DNA from: Betaproteobacteria bacterium RIFCSPLOWO2_02_FULL_63_19
GTDB lineage: Bacteria > Pseudomonadota > Gammaproteobacteria > Burkholderiales > SG8-39
Reading direction: 5' to 3'
DNA length: 53,914 nt
NCBI GenBank assembly: GCA_001770415.1
Contig: MEQX01000064.1
Location: 1 to 53,914 of the forward strand
A program made the translations under genes and the position numbers. Positions 21,831-31,894 of this stretch are shown piece by piece. The notes under the pieces are model-generated. The model saw only the letters and a list, made by a program, of their open reading frames with translations, was not told the DNA's origin and made no database searches. Position 1 is the stretch's first letter. Each line of letters begins with the position of its first letter.

Positions 21831-24326
21831 TCAATGCCCTGCGTCCAGCGCATCTTTCGATTCAGCGAGTTTCTCGTCTCCGAAGGCGGCATCGCCCGAT
21901 GGAGCACCGCCCACGCTGCGCACGGCATTGAAGAACAAAGACGCCTTTCCCCACAGCGAATTGAAGAATATCGCGGTGACGCTGCCGGCCATCGCAGCCA
22001 TCGCCCACACGGGGTAGATCAGGCCTGTCGCGGCAACCGGGATGCCGATGCCGTTAAAGCAGAACGCGAGTACTACGTTTTGCACCATTTTTCGATATCC
22101 GCGGCAGCTGATGTCGCGGGCAACCAGAATCGATTCGAGGCGAGTACGGAGAATAATGATGTCGGCCGACTCGATCGCGATATCGGTGCCACTGCCCATG
22201 GCTACACCCACGTCCGCCTGCATCAGCGCCGGTGCGTCATTGATGCCGTCTCCCACCATCGCGACTTTGCCTCCCTGCTGCAACCGTCGGATGATTTCCG
22301 CTTTTCGGTCGGGCAGCACGCCCGCGTACACTTGGTCGATGCCGGCCTCGCGCGCGACACGTTGAGCGGCGCGCTCGTTGTCGCCGGTCAACAAAATGGG
22401 GGTGATGCCGGCTTTGCGAAGTGCGGCGACTGTTTCCCCCGCATCGGCGCGCAGCCGGTCGCCAAGCGCGATGATACCGAGGGCGCTACCGTTGCTCGCG
22501 ACCGCGATCACGGTGCGCCCGAGTTCCTCCAATGGCTGAATGCGGGAAGAAAGAGAACCCAATTCGACGCCTTCTTCCTCCAAAAACCTCGGACTGCCAA
22601 CCAGAATAACGGCCCCCTTGATCCGGGCCCTCACGCCGCGGCCGGGAACCGCTGCAAAATCCGTAACCTCAACCGGCGTCACCTTGCGCTCGAACGCAAC
22701 GTCTACGATCGCCTGAGCCAGGGGATGCTCCGACGATGTTTCTGCTGCGGCCGCTATTCCCAGCAATTCTTCTTCGGAGGCGCCCAGGCTCAGGACTTCC
22801 CGCACGAGCGGCTGCCCTTCCGTCAGCGTACCCGTCTTGTCCAATACGACAAACTTGACCAGCCGATAGGCTTGAAACGCTTCACCGGTGCGCATCAGAA
22901 TCCCGCGCTCCGCCGCTTCCCCCGCGCCGCGCACGATCGAAAGTGGCGCCGAAATCCCCACCGCGCAGGGGTAACCCATGACGAGCACGCTCAATCCCGC
23001 GAAGACGGCGCGCTCAATGTCGACCTGTCCGGTCACAAACCATGGGCCGATGACCCAGCCGACCACCGCCAGGATCGCAATCGCCAGCACGACCGGCGTG
23101 TAGACCCGCAGCACACGATCGACCAAGTGCAGGAGCCCCGGTTTCAAGGCACGCGCATCCTCGACGTGCCGAATCACCTGCTGCAGGAAGCTATCTTCAC
23201 CGATGGCGGTGACACGCACCAGCAGGGTCCCAATGCGGTTCATCGAGCCGCCGACAACTTTGCTGCCCGGCGCTTTCTCGACAGGTATCGGCTCTCCGCT
23301 CACCAAGGATTCATCGACTGCGGAATGGCCGCCGATGACCTCTCCGTCCACGGAGACGCGCTCGCCAGGGCGGATCCGCACGCTGTCGCCTACCTTTACT
23401 TGTTCGATCGGAATTTCCTCATCACGCTCTCCGCGCGCCACCCGCGCAGTCTGCGGCTGCAGGTCCAGGAGCTTCTTGACGGCCTGCGAGCTTCTTGTCT
23501 TGACGATCAGGGACAGCCACTCCGAGAAAACATGATAGGTAACCACCATCACGGAGACGGCAAAAAAAGATGCGGTCGGATATTCCACAGGTTGCGCCAC
23601 GAGACCGATGAGCCCACCGGCGATGCCGGCGAACGCCCCGATTTCGAGCAATACGTGCTGGTTGAGAATCCCGCGTTTCAGCGCCTGAATCGCCATCACC
23701 AGGATGTGATTGGCGAGAGCGAAGACCATGATCAGCGCCAAGGCTCCCGTAATCCATGGGGTCGCCGCCGCCAACCAGCCCCGAGATCGAGCGTAGTACA
23801 AAACGGCCCCGAGCAGACATAAGCCAACGCCCCCTGCAATGGCGATGCCGAGTCCGCGGGGAGTCAGAACCACGAAGAACAGCGCGACCAGGCTTGCGAT
23901 GACGATCAGTGCGAGCAGTGCAGACCAGAACCCGGCCGGGTCCGCGATCAGCGCAATCGCCGCCAGACTAAAGCCTATGGCTGCGATAAAGCGCCGCCCC
24001 TCGCGTACCAGCGCCGCCTCTTCCTCTTCGAACGGCCGCAGCTTGCGCGGATCGGAAATCGTATAGCCGATGTCCTTGAGCGTTTGCAGCAGCTCTTCGG
24101 GACGCGCAAGCTTCGGGTCATACTCGATGAGCGCCTGCTCATGGGTCAGACTCACGGCGACCTTTGCGACACCGGGTTTCTTGCCCAGCGCCTTCTCGAT
24201 CGTTCCGGTGCACAACGAGCAATGCAGCCCGCCGATGCGGGCGCGGATTCGGGCCCGATCGGGACGATTCGACGGTTCCTCACTCCAGTAGCGGGGTAAA
24301 GATTCCATAATGCTCGCGGTGCTCAT
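21831..24326 (-). CDS. heavy-metal-translocating P1B-type ATPase with YPC transmembrane motif
   Basis: An 831-residue pump with an N-terminal HMA domain (GGLHCSLC, Cys36 and Cys39), several membrane helices, the actuator loop VSGEP, phosphorylation motif DKTGTLTEG, SEHPLAQA, and hinge GDGINDAP. The metal-binding helix reads VMGYPCAVGIS (Tyr452-Pro453-Cys454), whereas Cu, Zn, Cd and Pb pumps normally have CPC. The last helices carry FNGIGIPVAATG and MAGSVTAIFFNSL, closer to copper-type pumps than to Zn/Cd pumps. It is last in an operon with a CcdA-like protein (19-base gap) and an HMA chaperone, reading away from merR. Start ATG 24326 follows AAAGAAAGG. The exported metal is uncertain; Hg(II), Cu(I) or Pb(II) are possibilities. 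Confidence 0.9.
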   Translation of the reverse strand: MSTASIMESLPRYWSEEPSNRPDRARIRARIGGLHCSLCTGTIEKALGKKPGVAKVAVSLTHEQALIEYDPKLARPEELLQTLKDIGYTISDPRKLRPFEEEEAALVREGRRFIAAIGFSLAAIALIADPAGFWSALLALIVIASLVALFFVVLTPRGLGIAIAGGVGLCLLGAVLYYARSRGWLAAATPWITGALALIMVFALANHILVMAIQALKRGILNQHVLLEIGAFAGIAGGLIGLVAQPVEYPTASFFAVSVMVVTYHVFSEWLSLIVKTRSSQAVKKLLDLQPQTARVARGERDEEIPIEQVKVGDSVRIRPGERVSVDGEVIGGHSAVDESLVSGEPIPVEKAPGSKVVGGSMNRIGTLLVRVTAIGEDSFLQQVIRHVEDARALKPGLLHLVDRVLRVYTPVVLAIAILAVVGWVIGPWFVTGQVDIERAVFAGLSVLVMGYPCAVGISAPLSIVRGAGEAAERGILMRTGEAFQAYRLVKFVVLDKTGTLTEGQPLVREVLSLGASEEELLGIAAAAETSSEHPLAQAIVDVAFERKVTPVEVTDFAAVPGRGVRARIKGAVILVGSPRFLEEEGVELGSLSSRIQPLEELGRTVIAVASNGSALGIIALGDRLRADAGETVAALRKAGITPILLTGDNERAAQRVAREAGIDQVYAGVLPDRKAEIIRRLQQGGKVAMVGDGINDAPALMQADVGVAMGSGTDIAIESADIIILRTRLESILVARDISCRGYRKMVQNVVLAFCFNGIGIPVAATGLIYPVWAMAAMAGSVTAIFFNSLWGKASLFFNAVRSVGGAPSGDAAFGDEKLAESKDALDAGH

Positions 24327-24345
24327 GGCGACCTTTCTTTCACGA

Positions 24346-25020
24346 CTACGGCACGATTGAAACGTTCAAGCCGAACCATATCGACCACAGACCCAGGACA
24401 ATAAATGCGATTCCGCTCCAGAGCGGCATGCGCCGCGACAGTCCGGCCAGCCAATCGAGAACGCCACGGGCGCGCGGAAACAGCGCTACCACCATGATAG
24501 GCAGCGAGAGCGCAAGCCCGAACAGCGCGAGCGAGAGGAAGCCCGCAGCGAGTGAAGCACCGCCGGCGCCGCCCGCGATCGCCATTCCCACCAACGCCAG
24601 GATGAACGGCGCGGCACAGGCGGGAATGTTGAACGCAAACACGGCGCCGAGCGCGGCAGCGCCGTTGACGCTGGCTAGCCGCGACAGGCCGGGACCGAGA
24701 GACCGCAGCATGAATCCGATCTTGCCGGTGAGGTACAAGAGCCCTATCAGCGTGTAGGCTGCACCGAAAACTATCCAGGCCGCCTTCTGCAGCCCGAAGA
24801 AGGCGGTGCCGGCCGCAACCGCAGAAAGACCCAGCGCCCCCATGGCCAGCGCGCGCGTGCTCATGAATACGCCGACCTGCGTGAGCTGCCTCGAAGCGTT
24901 TTTACCTTCCAGCGTTTTAATAAAGATCAGGCTGGAACCAATGGAGCATGGCTCGATAAATCCCACCAGTCCCAGCCCGATGGGAAGAGCCACTAAACGC
25001 ACGAGATCGGCTTCAGCCAT
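24346..25020 (-). CDS. CcdA/DsbD-type transmembrane thiol-transfer protein
   Basis: A 224-residue protein that is almost wholly hydrophobic, with six predicted helices. It carries one Cys in each symmetric half: EPCSIGS (Cys25) and IPACAAP (Cys135), the arrangement used by CcdA and the DsbD membrane domain to pass electrons from the cytoplasm to the cell exterior. It overlaps the HMA gene by 8 bases (start 25020, HMA stop at 25013) and precedes the ATPase by 19 bases, so all three are one operon. It may keep the cysteines of a metal-binding partner reduced, or take part in metal transfer itself. A role in cytochrome c maturation is less likely here because no such genes are near. Confidence 0.8.
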   Translation of the reverse strand: MAEADLVRLVALPIGLGLVGFIEPCSIGSSLIFIKTLEGKNASRQLTQVGVFMSTRALAMGALGLSAVAAGTAFFGLQKAAWIVFGAAYTLIGLLYLTGKIGFMLRSLGPGLSRLASVNGAAALGAVFAFNIPACAAPFILALVGMAIAGGAGGASLAAGFLSLALFGLALSLPIMVVALFPRARGVLDWLAGLSRRMPLWSGIAFIVLGLWSIWFGLNVSIVP

Positions 25021-25234
25021 CGCTGCGGCCGGTGACGCGAAAGCCGCTTTTTTCGATCGCCGCCGTCAACTGCGCTTCGGTGACGCTGCGGGGATCGTAA
25101 AGCACCCGGGCGTGGCCGTCGTTGAACGACACCGCCGCCTTGTGAACACCGGCATTTCTCTCGAGCAGCGCCTGGATCGTCGCAGCGCAACCGTCGCAAT
25201 GCATGCCGTCGAGCTTCAATGTGACGCTGTGCAT
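25013..25234 (-). CDS. small heavy-metal-associated (HMA) domain protein, CopZ/MerP-like chaperone
   Basis: A 73-residue cytoplasmic protein that is a single HMA fold: VTLKLDGMHCDGCAATI holds the metal site (Cys13, Cys16), and TAAIEKSGFRV is the conserved last helix. It lacks a signal peptide, unlike MerP at 26296. AGGAGT lies 7 bases before ATG 25234; an ATG at 25240 is in frame but touches the ribosome site. It is the first gene behind the MerR-type promoter at 25298-25329, followed by the CcdA-like and ATPase genes. It probably hands metal to the N-terminal HMA domain of the pump. Confidence 0.88.
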   Translation of the reverse strand: MHSVTLKLDGMHCDGCAATIQALLERNAGVHKAAVSFNDGHARVLYDPRSVTEAQLTAAIEKSGFRVTGRSDG

Positions 25235-25297
25235 AGCCATACTCCTGTCGGGTTATTGCCTGACAATCCGGTCAGCCAAAAGCTGGAATTGAATTGG

Positions 25298-25329
25298 AGT
25301 CTAGACCCTGGAGTTAACTACAGAGTCAA
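25298..25329 (-). promoter_or_regulatory. MerR-family metal-responsive promoter, 20-base spacer
   Basis: On the minus strand TTGACT (25324-25329) and TAGACT (25298-25303) are separated by 20 bases, with an imperfect dyad CTGTAG-TTAA-CTCCAG in between. Overlong 19 to 20 base spacers with a central dyad are the mark of promoters twisted open by MerR-type activators; 20 bases is typical of Zn, Cd, Pb and Cu responsive members. It lies 64 to 95 bases before the HMA start and should drive the HMA, CcdA-like and ATPase genes. Confidence 0.7.
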
Positions 25330-25439: not shown

Positions 25440-25859
25440 TTACGACTCGTCCTCGATCAGGGCATCGATAACCGGGCAGCCGCAGCCGCGGCTGCCTTTG
25501 GAACACTTCGCGACCAGGCCCTTCAGCGCCTCCCGAATGGCCGCCAGGTCGGCGATTTTCTCCTCGACCACGGCCAGCCTGGTCTCGGCCAGGGCTTTGG
25601 TCTCTGCACAGTGCTTGCCGTCCGATAGCCCCAGCAGCACGGCGACATCATCCAGCGAGAACCCCAATTTCTGCGCCCGCTTGATAAAGCGAACGCGTTT
25701 CAGATCGTCCACCGAATACCGACGGATACTGCCGTAATCCCGGCTCGGCAGTGGCAGCAATCCGATTCGCTGGTAATAGCGCACCGTTTCGACATTCACC
25801 GCTGCGGCCCGAGCAAGCTGGCCGACCTTGATCCCGCTCATCGCAGTTTGTCGTGACAT
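25440..25859 (-). CDS. merR: mercury-responsive transcriptional regulator MerR
   Basis: A 139-residue MerR protein. The N-terminal winged helix (IKVGQLARAAAVNVETVRYY) is followed by a dimerisation helix and the three Hg(II)-binding cysteines at Cys84 (GKHCAE), Cys119 (AKCSKG) and Cys128 (CGCPVI). Spacings of 35 and 9 residues equal those of the well-studied Tn501 MerR, which argues for mercury rather than Zn or Cd sensing. The start is ATG 25859; ATG 25841 is an alternative, and neither has a strong ribosome site. It diverges from merTPFA across the operator at 25865-25895, so it would repress itself and activate mer when Hg(II) is bound. Confidence 0.93.
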   Translation of the reverse strand: MSRQTAMSGIKVGQLARAAAVNVETVRYYQRIGLLPLPSRDYGSIRRYSVDDLKRVRFIKRAQKLGFSLDDVAVLLGLSDGKHCAETKALAETRLAVVEEKIADLAAIREALKGLVAKCSKGSRGCGCPVIDALIEDES

Positions 25860-25864
25860 GAGGC

Positions 25865-25895
25865 TTGACTCCGTACTTGAGTACGGAGGTAACGT
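25865..25895 (+). promoter_or_regulatory. merT promoter and MerR operator
   Basis: TTGACT (25865-25870) and TAACGT (25890-25895) are 19 bases apart. Between and overlapping them lies a perfect dyad with 8-base arms CTCCGTAC and GTACGGAG around TTGA (25869-25888). This is almost base for base the classical mer operator-promoter, where MerR-Hg untwists the long spacer. It serves merTPFA to the right, and the divergent merR start lies only 5 bases to the left. Confidence 0.93.
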
Positions 25896-25930
25896 TACAC
25901 CATTCGTTGCATACGCGGAAGGAGAAATGG

Positions 25931-26281
25931 ATGGCCGAACAGCGAGACGGGCGCGGCGCGCTCGCAACCGGCGGGCTCGCCGCGATCCTGGCCTCGACCT
26001 GCTGCCTGGGTCCGCTGGCGCTGATCACGCTCGGCTTCAGCGGCGCCTGGATCGGCAATCTGACGCTGCTCGAACCGTACCGCCCGATCTTTATCGGCGC
26101 GGCGCTGGTCGCGCTGTACTTCGCGTACCGGCGCATAGGGCGCCCCGCCACGGCGTGTAAGCCGGGAGAGGTCTGCGCCATTCCGCAAGTCAGATTCACC
26201 TACAAGATCCTGTTTTGGTTAGTGGCCATCCTCGTGGCGATCGCGCTCGTCTTCCCCTATGTCGCACCGCTGTTCTACTGA
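25931..26281 (+). CDS. merT: mercuric transport protein MerT
   Basis: A 116-residue inner-membrane protein, exactly the usual MerT length, with three helices. The metal pair Cys24-Cys25 lies in helix one (STCCLGP) and a second pair, Cys76 and Cys82, in the cytoplasmic loop ACKPGEVC, matching known MerT positions. It takes Hg(II) from MerP and passes it to MerA inside the cell. ATG 25931 follows GGAGAAATGG. It is first in the mer operon, 36 bases behind the -10 element. Confidence 0.95.
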   Translation: MAEQRDGRGALATGGLAAILASTCCLGPLALITLGFSGAWIGNLTLLEPYRPIFIGAALVALYFAYRRIGRPATACKPGEVCAIPQVRFTYKILFWLVAILVAIALVFPYVAPLFY

Positions 26282-26295
26282 CCAAGGAGTCAAGC

Positions 26296-26577
26296 ATGAA
26301 GAAACTCGCCATTGCCGTCGCTCTCACCGCCGCCGCCTTCAGCTTGCCTGTCTGGGCCGCCTCGAAAACTGTCACGCTATCGATCCCCAGCATGTACTGC
26401 GAGGTGTGCCCGATCACGGTAAAGAAAGCGCTGACCAAAGTCGACGGCGTCGCCAAAGTCGAGGTGAACTTCAGCAAGCGGCAAGCCACGGTGACTTACG
26501 ACGACGCCAAAGCCAGCGTCGAGACCTTGACCAGGGCGACCGCGAATGCCGGCTACCCTTCCACGCTGGAGCGATAG
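26296..26577 (+). CDS. merP: periplasmic mercury-binding protein MerP
   Basis: A 93-residue precursor with signal peptide (MKKLAIAVALTAAAFSLPVW then A|A) and a single HMA fold. The metal site is Cys35 and Cys38 in IPSMYCEVCPITVKKAL. Most MerP proteins have GMTCAAC here, so Ser, Tyr, Glu and Val are replacements around conserved cysteines. It binds Hg(II) in the periplasm and gives it to MerT. AAGGAG lies 8 bases before ATG 26296, and the gene is 14 bases behind merT. Confidence 0.93.
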   Translation: MKKLAIAVALTAAAFSLPVWAASKTVTLSIPSMYCEVCPITVKKALTKVDGVAKVEVNFSKRQATVTYDDAKASVETLTRATANAGYPSTLER

Positions 26578-26580
26578 ACC

Positions 26581-28526
<1,946 letters not shown>

Positions 28527-30853: not shown

Positions 30854-31894
30854 TCAGCAACATGCCGATGTCCCTTCCGTACTCCCGGTGGCGTCGAACG
30901 GCAGGCCGCCGCCGCAACCGGCAAACAGTCCGTAGTGACGGCTGAAATCGCCGATGAATTCGAAATGCGCCGCGAAGCGGGTCTCGCGCAACATGCGCCA
31001 AGTGTTGCCGCATACCGGAAACACCCGGCCGGCCTCGATGTCATGGTGCTTGTCGAGCACAAAGCGGCCGCTATGCCCGGGTACACTGCCGCGATAGATC
31101 ACTGCCTGTCCATAGTCTTCGCACGTGGTCTCCAGAGCGTCGAGCTTGAACAACCGGTAGGTGGCCGAGAAAAAGCGCAGGTTGCCGGTACGCGATGCTA
31201 ATTCCGGGTCGGTGATCGCCAGCGGTCGGTCGGTCACCAGGCGCGGGTCCATGAAACCCAGTCGGTGCGCGAGGCGAAGGAAGTCGTTCCAATACAGCGC
31301 GCCACCCAGGCATTCGCCATAGAGCTCCGGGTCGTTGCGAACTGCGTCCGGCACGCGCCGGTCGGCGTAAACGTCCGAGAAGTAGAATTCACCGCCATGC
31401 TTGAGCAGCCTGCGCACGCCGCGCAGCACCGCGTCCTTGTCCGGCGAAAGGTTGACCACGCAGTTGGACACGATCACGTCAAAACTGCCTGGCTCCAGGT
31501 CGAGTTCGTCGAGACGCTCGATATAGCCCCGGAGGAAGCGCACATTGGCGTAACCGAATGCGTCCGAGTGGAACGCCCGGTGCTTCTGCGCGACATCGAG
31601 TTGCGCCTCGGTCATATCGACGCCGACCACCTCGCCCGTGGTGCCGACGAGTTGCGCCAGCGCGTAGACGTCGCGTCCCGAACCGCAACCCAGATCCAAG
31701 ACCCGGCGACCTTCCAGCAGGGGCGGGCAGACCAAGCCACAACCGTAATAGCGCGAGAGCACTTCCGGGTGAATACGCGCGAGCAGTGGCTTCAGCCATG
31801 TCGGAATCTGGCTGGTGTCGCAGCAGGCGCTGGTCTTGAGATCGGCGGAATGCCGCAATTGGCGGCCGTAGTAATCCTGAACGATGTCATGCAC
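30854..31894 (-). CDS. arsM: arsenite S-adenosylmethionine methyltransferase (ArsM-like)
   Basis: A 346-residue class I methyltransferase. The SAM loop is VLDLGCGSGRDVYALA, and the conserved arsenite-binding cysteines appear as Cys145 in IVSNCVVNLS and Cys195 in YGECLGGAL. Extra cysteines lie at the N-terminus (SACCDTS, Cys24-25; YGCGLVC, Cys52 and Cys56), one of which would fill the third As(III) position. It ends with a Cys-Cys tail (GTSACC). ArsM methylates As(III) to volatile or less retained forms. No arsR, arsB or arsC is in the window. It is the first of three co-oriented genes with pit and an AhpD-like gene. Confidence 0.87.
   Translation of the reverse strand: MHDIVQDYYGRQLRHSADLKTSACCDTSQIPTWLKPLLARIHPEVLSRYYGCGLVCPPLLEGRRVLDLGCGSGRDVYALAQLVGTTGEVVGVDMTEAQLDVAQKHRAFHSDAFGYANVRFLRGYIERLDELDLEPGSFDVIVSNCVVNLSPDKDAVLRGVRRLLKHGGEFYFSDVYADRRVPDAVRNDPELYGECLGGALYWNDFLRLAHRLGFMDPRLVTDRPLAITDPELASRTGNLRFFSATYRLFKLDALETTCEDYGQAVIYRGSVPGHSGRFVLDKHHDIEAGRVFPVCGNTWRMLRETRFAAHFEFIGDFSRHYGLFAGCGGGLPFDATGSTEGTSACC

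Follow-up and report, generated by a model that had tools for sequence, protein, structure and literature searches.

A gene trio for an HMA protein, a CcdA-like membrane protein and a YPC-type P1B ATPase is tied to mercury resistance genes and may complement them with metal export and thiol reduction

Textbooks use mercury resistance as the example of a detoxification that relies on importing and reducing the metal, not on efflux. What part, then, might a small HMA protein, a CcdA-like membrane protein and a P1B ATPase play beside a full mer operon? This arrangement occurs in the window, i.e., the whole stretch of 53,914 nt analysed here, which spans positions 1 to 53,914 (forward strand) of contig MEQX01000064.1 (GCA_001770415.1) of Betaproteobacteria bacterium RIFCSPLOWO2_02_FULL_63_19 (GTDB lineage Bacteria; Pseudomonadota; Gammaproteobacteria; Burkholderiales; SG8-39). 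The relevant features are listed below.

21831..24326, minus strand: P1B ATPase gene (831 aa; TIGR01525, 562.7 bits)
24346..25020, minus strand: CcdA-like membrane protein gene (224 aa; Cys25 in EPC, Cys135 in NIPAC)
25013..25240, minus strand: HMA protein gene (75 aa; PF00403, 57.4 bits)
25298..25329, minus strand: putative trio promoter of the MerR-family type (TTGACT, 20-bp spacer, TAGACT; dyad ACTCTGTAG-TTAA-CTCCAGGGT)
25440..25859, minus strand: merR, three-cysteine regulator (TIGR02051, 147.5 bits; cut-off 150.85)
25865..25895, plus strand: mer operator-promoter TTGACTCCGTACTTGAGTACGGAGGTAACGT (19-bp spacer; 12/12 against the mer half-sites)
25928..26281, plus strand: merT (NF010314, 203 bits; cut-off 150)
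26296..26577, plus strand: merP (TIGR02052, 131.5 bits; cut-off 92.55)
26581..26838, plus strand: merF (NF033565, 106.4 bits; cut-off 50)
26835..28526, plus strand: merA, with an N-terminal HMA domain and a C-terminal LSCCAG (TIGR02053, 588.9 bits; cut-off 454.45)

The trio is divergent from merTPFA, and merR, the nearest regulator, lies on the strand of the trio and upstream of it. A preliminary description of this DNA had reported three coupled minus-strand genes next to a full mer operon. The three genes were recovered in the positions it gave, the HMA and CcdA-like genes overlapping by 8 bases and the CcdA-like and ATPase genes being separated by 19 bases. The neighbouring operon is likewise complete, as MerT, MerP, MerF and MerA all exceed their curated cut-offs; MerR remains narrowly under its own, though MerR is its best family, and it is the only TIGR02047 match in the assembly.

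Distribution of the trio and its tie to mer genes

The set formed by MerR, HMA, CcdA-like and YPC ATPase genes is a real, recurring module that is strongly tied to mer. The trio search and the count of adjacent merA genes suggested in the preliminary description were carried out on the best 80 of 214 loci, a choice that over-represents nearer relatives. Forty-two of these loci are flanked by 9 kb or more on each side, and 30 of the 42 carry the whole trio. Within this best-80-of-214 set, merA is found within 10 kb in 14 of the 30 long-flank trio loci. MerA is encoded elsewhere in 14 of the 16 other genomes, giving 28 of 30 trio genomes with MerA; the two others (L032 and L038) have no MerA over the cut-off. 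The MerA check covered 66 of the 80 locus genomes, and MerA over the cut-off was absent from 14 of the 38 genomes searched for a copy elsewhere.

At the genome level, a tool-drawn sample of 398 Pseudomonadota was used. Strong matches to the CcdA-like profile were found in six of these genomes, all of which encode MerA over the cut-off, against 31 of the 392 genomes without such a match. For comparison, only 9 of the 52 genomes in the same sample that carry CadR/PbrR, another thiophilic-metal regulator, encode MerA. When the genome of the window is removed, the figures are 5/5 against 31/392 (Fisher p 5e-6). Where MerA is encoded, half of the trios (14 of 28) have merA within 10 kb, whereas the same holds for 5 of 116 other P1B ATPases over the cut-off (p 3e-8; the latter count was made by eye, and one more lies at 10.3 kb). 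Both p-values exaggerate the significance, since numerous loci are relatives of one another (e.g., L021/L022/L045, L023/L024, L026/L083 and L047/L048). Culturable carriers include Nitratireductor alexandrii (L024) and Thalassospira profundimaris (L045).

In some relatives, trio and mer genes share one strand. For instance, a Desulfobacteraceae MAG (L025) that falls into the window's own clade of the tree (98/97) has the genes for MerR, HMA, CcdA-like protein, ATPase and MerA (508.7 bits) in this order on one strand. In a congeneric genome (G003), merT to merA are followed on the same strand by the HMA gene, the CcdA-like gene and the start of the ATPase gene at the contig edge. Metagenome copies with 97-100% identity (P0005-P0009) are on record as well. 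Two genomes (G290 and G293) carry a CcdA-like gene with neither HMA, ATPase nor mer nearby, which counts against the tie.

According to the preliminary description, a CcdA-type protein is normally absent from mer operons. This does not stand, as a CcdA-like gene, without the ATPase, is found inside seven mer operons, downstream of merA in five (L028, L042, L060, L067 and G412) and of merT/merP in two (L014 and L068). These cases span five separately supported groups of the CcdA-like tree. Six of them also have merT and/or merP; in the remaining one (L060), merA and the CcdA-like gene come after merR, and neither merT nor merP was detected in 10 kb. A link between CcdA-annotated proteins and mercury is, moreover, already known in actinobacteria, CcdA- and TrxA-annotated “mercury transporters” being listed in Table 4 of a 2025 review (PMC12195606). 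Compared by description, these genes resemble the one in the window in encoding a CcdA-annotated membrane protein linked to mercury, and differ in that the HMA-ATPase trio is not reported in the parts of that review considered here. No CcdA-annotated gene was found in 20,000 of the 23,319 bases of pMAB23, an actinobacterial mer plasmid. A survey that covered 272 operons recorded transport, MerB, MerG, MerD and TRASH genes, and the portions of it considered here mention neither the ATPase nor CcdA (PMC3466566). We found no description of the trio in the open-licence literature.

Promoters and protein features of the trio

The trio was also said to have its own MerR-type promoter, and the site (TTGACT-N20-TAGACT, running from 25329 to 25298) proved unique on both strands of the window at the thresholds used. 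When the 200-bp stretch was modelled by 20,000 first-order Markov sequences, none contained the pattern. The form of this promoter suggests that the trio is controlled by a MerR-family protein. The dyad agrees with the ZntR half-sites at 11/12 positions and with the mer half-sites at 7/12; the trio of the window therefore has a ZntR-like rather than a mer-type operator, which counts against the mercury reading. The mer MerR is the only candidate regulator found in this genome, and the trio dyad is not of its usual type.

In relatives, 52 MerR-type regulator genes lying upstream of a CcdA-like gene were compared. The mer half-sites CCGTAC/GTACGG fit best in 36 of the 42 promoters found upstream of them (no promoter was found for the other 10; one gene was fetched twice). 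The three-cysteine pattern occurs in 40 of the 52 regulators, a count in which two faulty readings of three residues (L047 and L048) are scored as misses. None of the four trio regulators scanned reaches the cut-off for Hg-type MerR; three rank MerR first, and one (L017) ranks ZntR first.

The HMA protein carries its CxxC as HCDGC (within GMHCDGC), and no signal-like N-terminus was seen by eye. In 54 of 56 loci, its gene is coupled to the CcdA-like gene, the offset ranging from -8 to +24 nt.

The ATPase belongs to the P1B heavy-metal superfamily, scoring 562.7 bits against a TIGR01525 cut-off of 346.25, and is the only P1B ATPase over the cut-off in the assembly. It features an N-terminal HMA domain (HCSLC; PF00403 at residues 30-89) and the DKTGT motif as DKTGTLTEG. 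Cu(I) pumps of group P1B-1 are defined by CPC in TM6, YN(X)4P in TM7 and MxxSS in TM8, in the section of PMC5552934 used here. The ATPase of the window departs from all three motifs, having Y452-P-C454, F757-N within FN(X)4P, and M779-x-x-S-V. The altered signature is conserved in relatives, with YPC in 52/52 rows, FN in 49/49 readable rows and MxxS[VI] in 48/48 readable rows (the mis-framed row L045 was left out; one gene appears twice, as L041 and L139).

The CcdA-like protein (P0002) has no Pfam or NCBIfam match, not even to PF02683 or PF13386 at E 10, and PF13386 was matched by 1 of 32 aligned relatives. As these models gave nothing, the label was tested by alignment, profile and fold. Every one of the 112 alignment rows, the window's included, shows E-P-C25 and N-x-P-A-C135. 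In an hhalign comparison, the profile matched a CcdA-annotated plasmid protein (96.6%, E 5e-10), Cys135 being aligned to the TPC of the latter and the first cysteine lying outside the aligned part; the comparison with E. coli DsbD was not significant. The first Foldseek row is a PDB CcdA (5vkv), though the match is weak (E 0.2, prob 0.97, TM 0.48). A PDB sequence-profile search gave no match up to E 10, and a deeper AF2 alignment did not improve the model. The protein shares with CcdA/DsbD electron conduits two intramembrane cysteines, that at Cys135 being in the matching place by profile alignment, and differs from them in lacking a Pfam CcdA/DsbD match and, within the trio, a gene for a thioredoxin-like periplasmic partner. 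ScsB, a DsbD-like protein of copper stress, is grouped with these conduits.

Possible functions of the trio

We tentatively regard the trio, at close to an even chance, as an accessory module tied to mercury resistance that adds metal export and thiol reduction to mer. Described mer operons work by import and reduction, and mer alone would import and reduce Hg(II). The small HMA protein may serve as a cytoplasmic ligand for Hg(II) or a different thiol-loving ion. From there, the YPC ATPase would take up the metal through its own HMA domain and expel it with ATP, Cys454 probably being the intramembrane transport site. The CcdA-like protein could relay electrons from cytoplasmic thioredoxin via Cys25 and Cys135, and these electrons would prevent the oxidation of MerP and similar CxxC proteins beyond the membrane, which could then go on binding metal. 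A response of the trio to metal is likewise predicted. The weak fold match to CcdA and the missing periplasmic partner count against this export-and-thiol reading, and the single cysteine at the ATPase site against Hg(II) export, as Hg(II) would prefer two.

The main alternative, which we consider rather unlikely, is that a Cu(I)/Ag(I) chaperone-pump pair and a thiol protein are merely carried along with mer on metal islands. Co-occurrence can indeed stem from islands with several unrelated resistances, which counts against the mercury reading. The closest PDB relatives of the ATPase are copper pumps, and it also passes TIGR01511 (463.2 against 397 bits). The HMA protein and ATPase resemble CopZ-CopA, sharing a small HMA protein, a P1B pump, DKTGT and an N-terminal CxxC; the trio differs from that pair in its YPC/FN/MxxS[VI] signature, where CopA has CPC/YN/MxxSS, and in the CcdA-like gene in between. 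All three Cu(I)-site motifs are therefore altered in the ATPase, and most trio sensors show the three-cysteine pattern and not that of CueR. Copper genes adjoin the trio in NZ_CP139716, and a multicopper oxidase or CopB is encoded in 7 of the 42 long-flank loci; mer, however, is found in 19 of the same 42. A setting of mostly cbb3-oxidase or copper genes, never mer, had been named beforehand as evidence against a role beside mer, and this is not the pattern observed. The metagenomic P1B pump CopAL6, which shares the YPC motif, would speak against copper export as well: it failed to complement E. coli lacking copA and raised the copper content and sensitivity of the mutant (PMC11082258); unlike the trio's ATPase, it has two HMA domains, one at each end, and its operon is not given in the part of that report considered here. 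The copper increase would suit an ATPase that imports metal or feeds a periplasmic enzyme with no detoxification, which we judge very unlikely, since the mer neighbourhood and MerR-type sensors speak against import. To our knowledge, known P1B pumps are exporters.

It is also conceivable, if quite improbable, that the CcdA-like protein conducts metal itself. Hg(II) would then move from one of its membrane cysteines to the other and on to the coupled HMA protein, much as MerT hands Hg(II) to MerA. The coupling of the two genes, the L060 operon and the actinobacterial “mercury transporters” noted above (PMC12195606) would fit such a conduit. In contrast, merT and/or merP accompany the gene in six of the seven in-operon cases and would make a second importer redundant, and Cys135 aligns with the TPC of an annotated CcdA, whose family carries electrons. 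A P1B pump and a CcdA-type protein are combined in cco clusters as well. A CcoI-like pump with CcdA for cbb3-oxidase assembly is nevertheless scarcely credible here and was rejected, as the best CcoN match in the assembly scores 28.9 bits against a cut-off of 583.15; a motif that we take to be CcoN-like was found in none of 86 loci.

Returning to export and thiol reduction, the trio is predicted to be a second branch of mercury defence because its relatives occur mostly in bacteria encoding mercuric reductase. A bolder version, which we hold to be doubtful, sees a third mercury-resistance branch, in which a YPC P1B family exporting Hg-thiolates would work together with an HMA chaperone and a dedicated CcdA-type relay, in many cases under a MerR with a fused metal chaperone. 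Cells could then expel what MerA has left unreduced, and the relay would maintain MerP-like thiols in the open state from the inner side. If mer is repeatedly paired with an ATP-driven pump and a thiol conduit, some bacteria would both reduce and export. The module would also offer a testable substrate for YPC pumps, and it makes testable the old question of what protects the MerP CxxC from oxidation in an oxidising compartment.

Gene order and promoters in the window

The close linkage of the three genes described preliminarily is borne out. The HMA and CcdA-like genes overlap by 8 bases, and a 19-base gap separates the CcdA-like gene from the ATPase gene.

21831-24326, minus strand: P1B ATPase gene
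24346-25020, minus strand: CcdA-like gene
25013-25240, minus strand: HMA gene
25329 to 25298, between merR and the HMA gene: trio promoter, MerR-family type, 20-bp spacer
25440-25859, minus strand: merR, upstream of the trio on the same strand
25865-25895: mer promoter
25928-28526, divergent from merR: merT, merP, merF and merA

At the thresholds used, the trio promoter is the sole MerR-family-type site in the window. Its dyad is ZntR-like rather than mer-like (11/12 for ZntR half-sites, 7/12 for mer half-sites), and the mer promoter is fully mer-like. The E. coli copA and zntA promoters, which served as controls, were both classed correctly. The assembly (4.65 Mb, 92% complete) contains one P1B ATPase over cut-off, that of the trio, and no CcoN over cut-off. 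The CadR/PbrR model matches only the window merR. Since this model also scores in E. coli, other metal-responsive MerRs should be detectable with it, and the mer MerR is thus the only metal MerR found in this assembly as a possible regulator of the trio, 8% of the genome being missing. An arsenite methyltransferase-like gene lies near the mer genes (30854-31894, minus strand; PRK11873, 165.1 bits, under the 263-bit cut-off), and the region may accordingly be a wider metal(loid) island.

Recurrence and conserved features of the module

Scanning one genome per species revealed 214 places encoding a CcdA-like relative (loci denoted L). Among the best 80, the same kind of ATPase lies downstream in 60, an HMA gene upstream in 54, and both are present in 51. 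In 54 of 56 loci the HMA gene is coupled to the CcdA-like gene, with a 4-base overlap as the commonest arrangement. In L047 and L048, the ATPase gene downstream of the CcdA-like gene looks broken, as it is split into two overlapping parts that do not share a frame. When 6 further loci are included, a MerR gene lies upstream in 52 of 86, and 40 of these 52 genes encode three cysteines in MerR spacing. MerR and HMA share one reading frame in 20 of the 52 (L016, L023, L027, L030, L053, L075 and 14 more) and are separate in 22. On plasmid NZ_CP139716 (L148:8330-9004), both parts occur in a single annotated gene of 224 aa. Judged from sequence, the fusion is a putative sensor joined to its chaperone. 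None of the four trio regulators scanned reaches any curated cut-off.

No family model fits the CcdA-like protein, which has 1,057 relatives among 7,999 candidates scored. E-P-C25 and N-x-P-A-C135 show no variation across 112 alignment rows, at identities down to 36%. Profile comparison links the protein to one annotated as CcdA, with Cys135 in register; the fold match is weak. A second, Pfam-recognised CcdA/DsbD protein (PF02683) adjoins the trio at L018:520-1260, L054:9026-9766 and elsewhere, and the protein cluster it belongs to covers 12 loci. An ABC ATPase together with two permeases of the FtsX/MacB type also recurs next to the trio (L012, L013, L016, L026, L029, L038, L049, L051, L052, L077, L083).

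Association with mercury resistance genes

Within a 398-genome sample, every one of the 6 genomes whose CcdA-like match is strong has MerA, as do 31 of the other 392, which include one (G195) having both a weak match and MerA. Of 30 trios with at least 9 kb on both sides, 28 are in MerA genomes. The proposed count of trios adjacent to mer gave 14 of 30 within 10 kb of merA; half have no mer gene within that distance. Two controls were used, one for thiophilic-metal genes at large (MerA in 9/52 CadR/PbrR genomes) and one for pumps at large: in MerA genomes, merA is no more than 10 kb away from 5 of 116 other P1B ATPases, versus 14 of 28 trios. The p-values are indicative only, as rows are not independent. 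Among 38 genomes checked for want of nearby mer genes, 14 lack MerA over cut-off, and several are incomplete MAGs. Matches occur in 11 of 72,556 named plasmid records; of three plasmids inspected, two carry mer genes within 9 kb and one does not.

A lone CcdA-like gene resides within mer operons in L014, L028, L042, L060, L067, L068 and genome G412, and such genes fall into five separately supported tree groups. L014, which encodes the nearest relative of the window protein among the loci (85%), has the order merT, merP, GDCCVxC protein, CcdA-like. The GDCCVxC (seleno)protein maps to L014:9758-9982 (NF041374, 111.9 bits). In a Desulfobacteraceae MAG (L025), MerR, HMA, CcdA-like, ATPase and MerA genes are all on one strand. 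In a congeneric genome (G003), whose CcdA-like protein is only 53% identical to that of the window, this set shares a strand with the mer genes. In L021, L022, L045 and alphaproteobacterial mer loci, the operator of the adjacent alphaproteobacterial mer operons is of the CTGTAG/CTACAG type and differs from the dyad of the trio regulator (CCGTAC/GTACGG); this points to two distinct regulators next to each other.

Mercury or copper

The main alternative is that the trio is a Cu(I)/Ag(I) set carried with mer, and copper genes do occur near some trios. Also counting against a mercury role are the non-mer dyad of the window trio promoter, the regulator scores below cut-off, the half of the long-flank trios that lack mer genes nearby, and the 14 genomes lacking MerA over cut-off. 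The transport-site triplet, however, is YPC in 52 of 52 ATPase relatives, and every readable relative row features FN for YN and MxxS[VI] for MxxSS, as do two fully read plasmid copies (NZ_CP139716, NZ_CP020932). By these residues, the YPC ATPases form a coherent group failing the Cu(I) pump signature, as given in the part of PMC5552934 consulted. CopAL6, a metagenomic YPC pump, is reported to have exported no copper in E. coli (PMC11082258), which weakens the copper reading without settling the matter.

A description of the trio was not found in the literature searched, and the searched text of two mer surveys (PMC3466566, PMC8261052) mentions neither ATPase nor CcdA. Earlier evidence for CcdA-type proteins in mercury resistance comes from PMC12195606, where some actinobacterial mercury transporters are listed with the annotation CcdA or TrxA. 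The role with the most support for the trio is one in mercury resistance, given the association, the in-operon genes and the arrangement of MerR, HMA, CcdA, ATPase and MerA on a single strand. From knowledge of the families, the pump is predicted to export mercury and the CcdA-like protein to supply electrons. Speculatively, a single transport-site cysteine would suit a metal keeping one thiolate ligand, such as RS-Hg+.
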